A stretch of DNA of 64,000 nucleotides, taken from Marinomonas sargassi. GTDB taxonomy: Bacteria; Pseudomonadota; Gammaproteobacteria; Pseudomonadales; Marinomonadaceae. The stretch is from the NCBI RefSeq assembly GCF_025716875.1, contig NZ_JAOVZB010000004.1, positions 310,001 to 374,000 on the forward strand. The letters are read 5' to 3'. Below are positions 52,716 to 55,291 of this stretch, in pieces. Position 1 is the stretch's first letter. Each line of letters begins with the position of its first letter. The notes beneath the pieces are model-generated. The model was not told the origin of the DNA, made no database searches, and saw only the letters and a program-made list of their open reading frames with translations. The translations under genes and the position numbers were made by a program.

Positions 52716-53333
52716 TTAAATATTTCCCATGTAACGACCCGGTTTGTGGTTAACAGTAATAATCAGGTTTAAAGCAAAAGCACCAATAAAAGAAATAATT
52801 ATTAGCCAGTAATCCACTACAAATACAGATAACAACACGATGCCGCAATCTATAACCATTTGAAATTTCCCCATAGAAACTCCATATTTTTCAGCTATAT
52901 AGCGAGCTAAAATATTTATACCACCTAAGCTGGCGTTATGTCGAAACAGCATAAGAAAGCCAACCCCCATTAAAAAGCCACCCGCTATACTGGCATAAAA
53001 AGGATTAACGCTCTCGAAGGACAATAACATCGGAGTTAAATCTGAAAATAATGATAGACAAAATACTGCGCAGAAAGTCTTTAACGTAAACTCCCAACCA
53101 AAATGCACTATCGCCAATATATAAAAAGGTAAATTAATCAAAAAGAAAGCTTGCCCAAAAGTTAAAGGCGATGAGTACTGAATAATAAACGCTAAACCTG
53201 CCGTTCCTCCCGTCAATAAACCAACTTGTGAGAAAAGGTTAATTGCCAAGGCTATAATCATGGTTCCAATGACCATAGCTTGAATATCCTCAAGGCGGGT
53301 ATGTTTTTGAGGGGATTGTTTACTAGTAGACAT
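52716..53333 (-). CDS. YitT-family membrane protein (DUF161)
   Basis: 205 residues with about five to six helices. MVIGTMIIALAINLFSQVGLLTGGTAGLAF and GGINILARYIAEKYG are YitT/DUF161 hallmarks. The usual C-terminal DUF2179 domain is absent, so this is the short form. Proposed to be a transporter; substrate unknown. It stands alone between rsuA and sodX. Confidence 0.87.
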   Translation of the reverse strand: MSTSKQSPQKHTRLEDIQAMVIGTMIIALAINLFSQVGLLTGGTAGLAFIIQYSSPLTFGQAFFLINLPFYILAIVHFGWEFTLKTFCAVFCLSLFSDLTPMLLSFESVNPFYASIAGGFLMGVGFLMLFRHNASLGGINILARYIAEKYGVSMGKFQMVIDCGIVLLSVFVVDYWLIIISFIGAFALNLIITVNHKPGRYMGNI

Positions 53334-53459: not shown

Positions 53460-53762
53460 CTATACACTTTTAGTTGGACGAGAAGAACGAATACTCGTAA
53501 TAACTTTGCCGATAACACGTCTTGGGGACACCCAGCCAATTTTTTCTGACTGCATGCTTTTGTTGTTCTCTCCGCCAAGCCATAACTGACCATCGGGAGC
53601 GATGTGAAGTACTCTCTTTACGATATAACCATATAAAGCATGGTCGACCACCACAAGGTGGCCGATCATCAGTTTACGATACCAACGACTAATAAAAACG
53701 AAATCACCCTCTTCCAAAAGAGGTGACATGCTTTCTCCCTGCACTTTAATTAGCTTAAACAT
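53460..53762 (-). CDS. sodX: Nickel SOD maturation protease, S26 family
   Basis: Processes the propeptide of NiSOD to expose the N-terminal His needed for nickel binding. The S26 dyad is Ser11 in QGESMSPLL and Lys49 in YGYIVKRVL, with the GGENNKSMQSEKIGWV end typical. Only 100 residues and no membrane helix, shorter than signal peptidase I. It follows sodN by 78 bases on the same strand, the conserved sodN-sodX arrangement. Confidence 0.9.
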   Translation of the reverse strand: MFKLIKVQGESMSPLLEEGDFVFISRWYRKLMIGHLVVVDHALYGYIVKRVLHIAPDGQLWLGGENNKSMQSEKIGWVSPRRVIGKVITSIRSSRPTKSV

Positions 53763-53840
53763 TATCCACCTCTGATGCTGTGGCTAAGGCCTTCCCTTAA
53801 CTATTTTCGTATTACTTTGCCGTTCGTATTAAAAAGCCAA

Positions 53841-54338
53841 TTAGCCTTTTAGATCTGGGTAAACTGTATCAAGCATTGGTGGGTATGGGCATGCTGCACG
53901 GTATGTAGACACGCCTTTAGTCAACCAAAATGCTTCAGCGAACTCATTTACTAGCTCAACAAGTTTTTCACCGTCAGCGCGGTTAATACCTTGTTTACAC
54001 TTAGAAGCCTGCAACATAATGCTGTGTGTTAATTCATGAGCATTTGGAATTTGTTCAAACTGAGGTGCTTTGAAGTAATCGCCCCAGATGATGCGAACTG
54101 CTTCTTTAACTTCAGTACAAGCCGCTTCTTTCTCTGCAACTAAACGAGATACTTTAGCAACTTCTGCAACACCAACTTCACCTTCAACTTCTTTGATGAT
54201 GTCCATAAGGCGAACACAGCTCAAAGCCGCTAATAAAGCAGTTGATGGATCGTAAATTTTACATGGGATATCGCAATGCGCTTTAGCTGTCTTAAACTGA
54301 ACAACTTTATCTACCATTTTGATCATACTATGCATCAT
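53841..54338 (-). CDS. sodN: Nickel-containing superoxide dismutase
   Basis: Dismutates superoxide. ATG 54338, with AGAGGA about 8 bases upstream, gives 165 residues with a 20-residue propeptide ending KTAKA. The mature protein would begin with the nickel-hook HCDIPCKIYDP: His1, Cys2, Cys6 and Tyr9 of NiSOD. The mature part is about 145 residues. Earlier codons to 54416 overlap the upstream gene and lack support. It is preceded by a small His-rich membrane gene and followed by sodX; a Fur-like box starts the operon. Confidence 0.96.
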   Translation of the reverse strand: MMHSMIKMVDKVVQFKTAKAHCDIPCKIYDPSTALLAALSCVRLMDIIKEVEGEVGVAEVAKVSRLVAEKEAACTEVKEAVRIIWGDYFKAPQFEQIPNAHELTHSIMLQASKCKQGINRADGEKLVELVNEFAEAFWLTKGVSTYRAACPYPPMLDTVYPDLKG

Positions 54339-54351
54339 GGCTAACTTCCTC

Positions 54352-54549
54352 TTATTGATCGTTTTTACGGCGACGTTGAATTTGCTTATAAACCACAGCC
54401 GAAAGAATAACGCCACTTACAGCAAGTACACTTAATACGTGGATAGCGCTGCTCATCCAATGAGAATGATCATGTCCAGGGTGTGCTTGTGCAACTTGGC
54501 TTAAAACAAGAAATACACTTACTAGTAAAGTAGTAACAACAGACTTCAT
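54352..54549 (-). CDS. Small His-rich membrane protein, HupE-like N terminus
   Basis: 65 residues starting at ATG 54549 with AAGGA 6 bases upstream. A signal peptide (about 1-22) ends AQA; the mature part starts HPGHDHSHW, like the HPGH start of HupE/UreJ nickel permeases, then one membrane helix (about 36-54) and a basic tail. It is far shorter than HupE. It ends 13 bases before sodN starts and probably belongs to the same operon. A role in nickel supply is inference. Confidence 0.75.
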   Translation of the reverse strand: MKSVVTTLLVSVFLVLSQVAQAHPGHDHSHWMSSAIHVLSVLAVSGVILSAVVYKQIQRRRKNDQ

Positions 54550-54598
54550 ATATTTTTCCTTATGGTTCATGTTGAAAGTTAAAAAAATACACTAACAA

Positions 54599-55042
54599 TT
54601 AATGCTGCACCACTGCCTTAGCACTGGATACAGCTTGCGATAGAGCTTGTAACAAAGACTTTTTTTGCGACATCACGCTATTACCATGGGTTTTAGAAAA
54701 TAAATCCCACTCGAAGCGAATATGCGAGGCCGTTCTCATAATTAAGACACGGTGCTCTTCCTCCATATCCGGACGAGCAATAATAGCTTGGAGAAAGTTT
54801 ACAGCATTTTCATACTGTGTGTTAGCAGATATGTAATCTCCTAAAGAAGAATAAGACTCCGCCATATTCAAAAAGCTCACTGCTATAGCAGCAACAGAAG
54901 ATTCAGCATCCAGATGGAAGCTGTCGTCAAAAGATTGTTGAGCCTGATAAAGAGCCTCTCTGTGCAACTCTACAGCATCAGAAAAAGCATAATTTGAATG
55001 CGCCTTATTGGCCTGTCTTGTTAAACGTTCCCAGTTTTGCAT
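54599..55042 (-). CDS. Tetratricopeptide-like protein of unknown function
   Basis: 147 residues from ATG 55042, with GGGAGGG just upstream. Helical pairs such as HSNYAFSDAVELHREAL and FLNMAESYSSLGDYISANTQYENAV match TPR spacing, suggesting two or three repeats (about 5-105). No known partner. It is the first gene behind the Fur-like box in the NiSOD operon, 49 bases before the His-rich gene. Could assist NiSOD assembly, but this is unproven. Confidence 0.7.
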   Translation of the reverse strand: MQNWERLTRQANKAHSNYAFSDAVELHREALYQAQQSFDDSFHLDAESSVAAIAVSFLNMAESYSSLGDYISANTQYENAVNFLQAIIARPDMEEEHRVLIMRTASHIRFEWDLFSKTHGNSVMSQKKSLLQALSQAVSSAKAVVQH

Positions 55043-55071
55043 AGTACCCTCCCAACACAAATAAATTAAAA

Positions 55072-55090
55072 CTTAATGAGAATCATTATT
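55072..55090. promoter_or_regulatory. Fur box upstream of the NiSOD operon
   Basis: The site matches the 19-base Fur consensus at 15 positions, with core TAATGAGAATCATTATT. A second, weaker palindrome TGAGAAT-A-AATCTCA lies at 55120-55134. Both are in the divergent gap between the TPR-like gene and the adenylate-kinase-like gene at 55292, placing them well for control of the operon by iron. Confidence 0.75.
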
Positions 55091-55291
55091 ATATATAAGA
55101 AAAGAAAAATCCACCTATATGAGAATAAATCTCAATAATTAAAAGCAGCTACTAAATATTTGTTGGAAGGGCAGACTCCAAGAATATTCATTCAACTATT
55201 TGCGCTAACTAGATGAAGAAAATAACTTTTTTACTGACAACAACATCCATTCACTCTACCCTATTTGTAGGAATCAAAAAAAGGTGGAAAC

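Follow-up and report, generated by a model that had tools for sequence, protein, structure and literature searches.

A four-gene cluster on the minus strand of the window (the whole 64,000-nucleotide stretch of DNA analysed here), which reads tpr, mini, sodN and sodX in the direction of transcription and is preceded by a Fur-box-like site and a second palindrome, is best explained as an iron-sparing superoxide dismutase (SOD) operon that would be repressed by Fur, with mini serving in nickel delivery and tpr as an adaptor. We put the probability of this reading at roughly 0.6. The gene order behind a 15/19 Fur-box match and a further palindrome, claimed in the original prediction, was confirmed by coordinates, profile searches and an alignment across the genus (Table 1).

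Table 1. Genes and candidate operator sites of the nickel superoxide dismutase (NiSOD) cluster; positions are those of the window.
Feature	Positions	Strand	Description
sodX	53460-53762	-	100 aa, NiSOD maturation protease; TIGR02754, Pfam Peptidase_S24 and S26 above cut-off
sodN	53841-54338	-	165 aa, nickel superoxide dismutase precursor, leader then HCDIPCKIYDP; Sod_Ni 4.6e-42
mini	54352-54549	-	Membrane protein of 65 aa with a signal peptide, AHPGHDHSHW, one more hydrophobic helix and an RRRK tail
tpr	54599-55042	-	Helical protein of 147 aa, TPR-like; its gene opens the operon
Fur-box-like site, 15/19	55072-55090	.	CTTAATGAGAATCATTATT
Second palindrome TGAGAATAAATCTCA	55120-55134	.	Possible second operator; near-invariant in 16 aligned upstream regions

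The intergenic gaps, calculated from the coordinates in the order of transcription, were 49, 13 and 78 bp, and the four genes probably share a single transcript. The start of tpr was taken as the ATG at 55042, which follows GGAGG, and an upstream TTG given in the ORF list was set aside. SodN scored 144 bits against Pfam Sod_Ni (PF09055; cut-off 25) and 138.1 bits against TIGR02753 (cut-off 90), and its nickel hook, HCxxPC, follows a short leader, with AHCDIPCKIYDP invariant across 10 aligned proteins. SodX, encoded next to sodN, narrowly passed the TIGR02754 cut-off (65.0 bits cf. 63.25). Neither mini nor tpr matched any Pfam or NCBIfam family above its cut-off. A YitT-family membrane gene (52716-53333, minus strand) follows sodX in the same direction, and a homologue was present in 15 of 17 genus loci.

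A gene-order search did not refute the original prediction, as a lack of conservation of the two extra genes beside sodN would have done. PF09055 was detected in 20 of 56 relatives, and within the genus in 17 of 35 genomes examined, all 17 of which carry tpr, mini, sodN and sodX. Overall, tpr, mini and sodX accompanied sodN in 19 of the relatives' 20 loci, the exception (L002) having neither tpr nor mini; among the 19, the tpr matches of L003, L006 and L010 were distant (22-32% identity) and the mini match of L017 had an E-value of 0.003. Across a class-wide sample, PF09055 occurred in 10 of 369 genomes. From a scan of named genomes we also kept the best 80 of 472 relatives, a choice that makes this sample lean to close sequences; sodX was present at 80/80 of these loci, tpr at 49/80, mini at 54/80 (counting one mini-NiSOD fusion, L062, but not the match of the mini profile to a full-length HupE in L110) and both tpr and mini at 39/80. 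Many distant genera likewise retain the two genes beside sodN. Searches of plasmids returned no tpr match, sodN matches in 2 records (the best one without gene annotation) and 1 weak fagA match, and PHROGs contained no match to tpr or mini.

The Fur-box-like site lies 30-48 bp ahead of the tpr ATG and was scored against the Fur-box consensus. Within the 281 bases of the window around the tpr start, a score of 15 was reached by 2 of 1000 dinucleotide shuffles and a score of 14 by 31 of 1000. An alignment of 16 upstream regions from the genus (the window with L004, L005, L007-L009 and L011-L020, i.e. 16 of 17 genus loci, L003 being left out) showed the blocks around AATGAGATTTATTCTCA and GATAATGATTCTCATTA to be near-invariant, with GGAG and then the tpr ATG behind them. 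The promoter region carries a 19-bp Fur-box-like site that is kept in relatives, the sequence pattern by which a Fur regulon member is recognised. The operon start gave no sigma-70-type promoter match.

Other sodN upstream regions were scanned for Fur sites as well, taking for each locus the top-scoring 19-mer between -250 and +30 relative to the gene block. A box of at least 15 was found at 28 of 80 named loci, compared with a mean of 0.2 loci in dinucleotide shuffles and with 14 of 278 further upstream regions from these loci, controls that may themselves include Fur-linked neighbours. The figure of 28/80 counts related species separately; when loci were pooled by genus or MAG, as labelled by us, 15 of 51 groups reached 15. 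One locus (L088) had a box of 19/19. When 78 of the 80 loci were divided by gene content (two were dropped for missing upstream DNA), a box of at least 15 preceded 30 of the 63 loci with tpr or mini, the other 33 scoring below 15, versus 0 of the 15 loci with neither gene, a zero to which phylogeny and composition contribute because Synechococcus and further lineages that are distant or GC-rich are among these loci. In this comparison the operon walk overran at L034 and L049, whose -250 to +30 boxes score 16 and 14. Since the best of 40 shuffles per single locus ranged from 11 to 16, a score of 13 or 14 in one locus carries little weight.

Within the source genome, the pattern TAATGAKAATCATTAT had 22 matches, some of them overlapping, compared with 5 for the backward control. 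The operon site was the only exact match, which is partly so by construction, as the pattern was derived from that site, and was thus not used as an estimate of chance. As judged from ORFs read by eye, without family searches, some of the other matches lie ahead of genes that resemble those for TonB receptors, siderophore transport or heme/flavodoxin functions, whereas the rest precede nothing obvious. Fur is predicted to bind the candidate site at 55072-55090.

A different regulator is conceivable, as the source genome encodes one Fur (8.5e-45) and one more distant Fur-family member. The site might be bound by another Fur-family protein or be mainly an AT-rich promoter, with sodN not being iron-regulated in this species. 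The SOD inventory lends this some weight, as neither an Fe/Mn SOD (PF02777) nor a CuZn SOD was found in the source genome, the completeness of which is given as 99.99%, and PF02777 was present in 34 of 34 other genus members. Because NiSOD was the only SOD found, full repression by Fur would leave the species SOD-less in iron-rich medium, and a plain exchange of an iron for a nickel enzyme is not the whole story here. Among 20 sodN genomes, 17 also had an Fe/Mn SOD, and the box scored at least 15 in 16 of these 17 and 14 in the remaining one. The three sodN genomes with no Fe/Mn SOD found were the source genome, G038 and G045 (81% complete); the latter two lack a good box, with scores of 11 and 12. 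The box tends, as far as three such genomes can tell, to accompany a second SOD, with the window species as the exception, and retention of the box in this genome, although no other SOD was found, is unexpected. Against control by another regulator or mere base composition, the site is conserved across the genus, sites of its sequence class lie ahead of some of this genome's apparent iron genes, and in the one published NiSOD measurement that we found, transcripts respond to iron (PMC7190382); we consider this explanation quite improbable.

That measurement, according to the accessible text, concerned Alteromonas macleodii, in which transcripts of NiSOD (MASE_02360) and of fumarase C were enriched under iron limitation (PMC7190382). 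Neighbours of the cluster at the 80 named loci included fumC (8), fagA (8, one at 4e-4), flavodoxin (4) and FeSOD (3, all of one genus), not always within the operon of sodN. Fur-mediated iron sparing, as originally proposed, is thus favoured by conserved boxes, by iron-sparing neighbours in some loci and by the A. macleodii transcripts (PMC7190382), and its simplest form, a straight swap of one SOD for another, is incomplete in a genome where NiSOD is the only SOD found. Elsewhere in the source genome, fagA and fumC lie together (L182, G000:C4, 3772-4203 and 2380-3756) with a 15/19 Fur-like box. At seven loci (L051, L069, L085, L089, L092, L102 and L108), mostly of Alteromonadales type, a further small protein family with a start like CPxHxxW precedes the gene block; its L069 member had no Pfam match.

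The consensus of mini comprises a signal peptide, AHxGHDHxHWxSxxxH, one hydrophobic helix and a basic tail, with the HxGHDHxHW motif sitting behind the signal peptide. The tail was net positive in 62 of 64 distinct minis and hydrophobic stretches flanked the motif on both sides in 50, which suggests that the N-terminus is outside and the tail inside. The minis of L017, L023 and L046 have lost HPGHDH, and an absolute need for the motif is accordingly disfavoured. At L062, mini and NiSOD form one protein of 225 aa (one contig of one MAG). Two loci missing mini have, upstream of sodN, a HupE (L110; 5.7e-51) or a HupE-like protein barely below the cut-off (L095).

Mini itself had no match to the HupE/UreJ permease family (PF04955) up to an E-value of 0.1 and, at 65 aa with two hydrophobic segments (the signal peptide being one of them), does not qualify as one of these permeases; it scored 17.9 bits against DUF6732 (PF20506), below the cut-off of 27. 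In an hhalign comparison with the HupE profile, mini aligned at its N-terminus over 41 columns with 96.6% probability. Descent of mini as a truncated HupE is nevertheless not supported: at least 10 bits against the HupE profile were scored by 37 of 39 real minis and by a mean of 0.05 of 39 when the mature part was fully shuffled, and with the motif left intact and only the remainder of the mature part shuffled, a mean of 31.65 of 39 still reached this score. Because the motif-kept shuffles retain their scores, the HupE match is borne mainly by signal peptide and motif.

Among the 369 class genomes, mini matches better than 1e-10 occurred in four (G000, G194, G212 and G322), all beside sodN. 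Weaker relatives included small proteins directly behind the large subunits of [NiFe] hydrogenases (L194 and L196), one near genes that appeared by eye to be for hydrogenase maturation (L193) and one adjoining ureD (L207). Mini-like small proteins were seen next to hydrogenase and urease genes at L240 (8241-8414), L241 (near 8100) and L239 (9794-9994). Mini is not a regular neighbour of urease: UreD was found in 88 of 369 genomes, and in the 30 UreD loci examined none had a mini within 1.5 kb. One mini-like gene (G359) did stand as a urease neighbour, and the urease cluster of the source genome had no HupE or mini match among the listed ORFs of an 18-kb stretch.

Mini might bind copper, zinc or iron and protect or sense instead of delivering nickel. 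Several divalent metals could bind HxGHDHxH. In addition, crystals of an N-terminal-histidine domain on a HupE/UreJ-2 permease were obtained with copper, the nickel form having precipitated (PMC12537917, accessible text). Mini and mini-like genes were seen beside nickel enzymes, i.e. NiSOD, [NiFe] hydrogenase and urease, and these neighbours speak against another metal, which we regard as rather unlikely. Nickel is the presumed ligand of mini. The earlier suggestion that the small genes act in nickel delivery or assembly suits mini fairly well and tpr only loosely. A correction to it is that tpr also occurs without sodN.

The tpr protein of the window alone fell under the Pfam TPR cut-offs; the profile of its family matched consensus TPR proteins (best 5.5e-58), which places it in the TPR superfamily. 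Its AlphaFold2 model was all helix (mean pLDDT 94.4), and the top Foldseek matches of this model were TPR proteins, none of them at E ≤ 0.001. A C-terminal histidine was observed in 43 of 58 distinct tpr sequences and in 19 of 31 tpr sequences from L047-L110 without L049, where L079 and L093 are named Marinomonas; the background was 66 of 783, spurious ORFs included. A role of tpr confined to NiSOD was rejected, given strong matches in G406 and G310, in which sodN was not found, and a second copy in G194. Tpr could be an assembly adaptor.

In G310, tpr follows fagA and a TonB-receptor-like gene, and in G406 it stands alone, which also fits the view that tpr and mini belong to the general response to iron starvation, have no more than the Fur promoter in common with sodN and act on neither NiSOD nor nickel. 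The fagA-fumC-orfX-sodA operon of Pseudomonas provides a precedent, as a small gene of no known role rides there with an iron-regulated SOD (PMC3377617 and PMC3224232, as far as their accessible text goes). This view is at odds with the location of all four strong class-wide mini matches beside sodN, with the existence of a mini-sodN fusion, and with the weaker mini relatives that adjoin other nickel enzymes, and we judge it unlikely.

It is established for this family that SodX cleaves the leader ahead of HCDIPC and that nickel enters the N-terminal hook; to our knowledge, descriptions of how NiSOD in these bacteria obtains its nickel end with this cleavage step. NiSODs have been described as mainly cytosolic (PMC9936198, accessible text). 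Under the iron-sparing operon that we favour, iron-loaded Fur would sit on the site ahead of tpr, and probably also on the upstream palindrome, and repress the four genes; a drop in iron would release the operon, such that an iron-free SOD is made. SodN would be a cytoplasmic precursor from which SodX trims the leader, whereupon nickel could enter the hook. Mini would be an inner-membrane protein whose HxGHDHxHW segment faces outwards and whose basic tail faces inwards, and may gather nickel, or aid a permease in doing so, beside the maturing NiSOD, and tpr may be a cytoplasmic helical-repeat adaptor that holds the precursor or the protease. A bolder version, which we find doubtful, is that mini represents an undescribed single-helix nickel-delivery family for NiSOD and, through its relatives, for hydrogenase and urease; it would tether or feed pro-NiSOD at the inner membrane, cleavage by SodX would free the loaded enzyme, tpr would organise the complex under Fur control, and the mini-NiSOD fusion would be that step frozen.

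The use of NiSOD as an iron-sparing enzyme is already in print (PMC7190382, PMC11069385), and in ocean metatranscriptomes NiSOD is used among several biomarkers of iron stress (PMC11069385, accessible text). In the accessible open-licence literature, we found neither tpr nor mini described as an accessory gene, and no account of a Fur operator at sodN. Such an operator, if conserved, would supply a mechanism for the published response of NiSOD to iron limitation, and two conserved accessory genes, one of them naturally fused to NiSOD, make the nickel route directly testable.

Several known systems resemble this cluster in part. NiSOD is induced at low iron in A. macleodii (MASE_02360), in a report whose accessible text names neither an operator nor accessory genes (PMC7190382). 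In marine cyanobacteria, sodN-sodX-sodT likewise combines NiSOD, its peptidase and a membrane gene proposed as nickel supplier (PMC4284471, accessible text), but SodT is a six-TM UreH-type permease, whereas mini has ~65 aa, and the Synechococcus loci among our 80 had neither tpr nor mini and, in those tested, no box above 10. The HupE/UreJ nickel permeases (PF04955) share with mini a signal peptide followed by an HPGH-type motif; their further TM helices are missing in mini. The Pseudomonas fagA-fumC-orfX-sodA operon is likewise Fur-linked, with an iron-free SOD and a small gene of no known role (PMC3377617, PMC3224232, accessible text), and some NiSOD loci lie near fagA-fumC, although the SOD here is nickel-dependent, unlike that of Pseudomonas. 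Finally, in Streptomyces coelicolor, the Fur-family regulator Nur chooses between the Fe-SOD and NiSOD encoded by sodF and sodN; Nur is nickel-specific according to the accessible text (PMC3919588), whereas the site described here resembles an iron-Fur operator.
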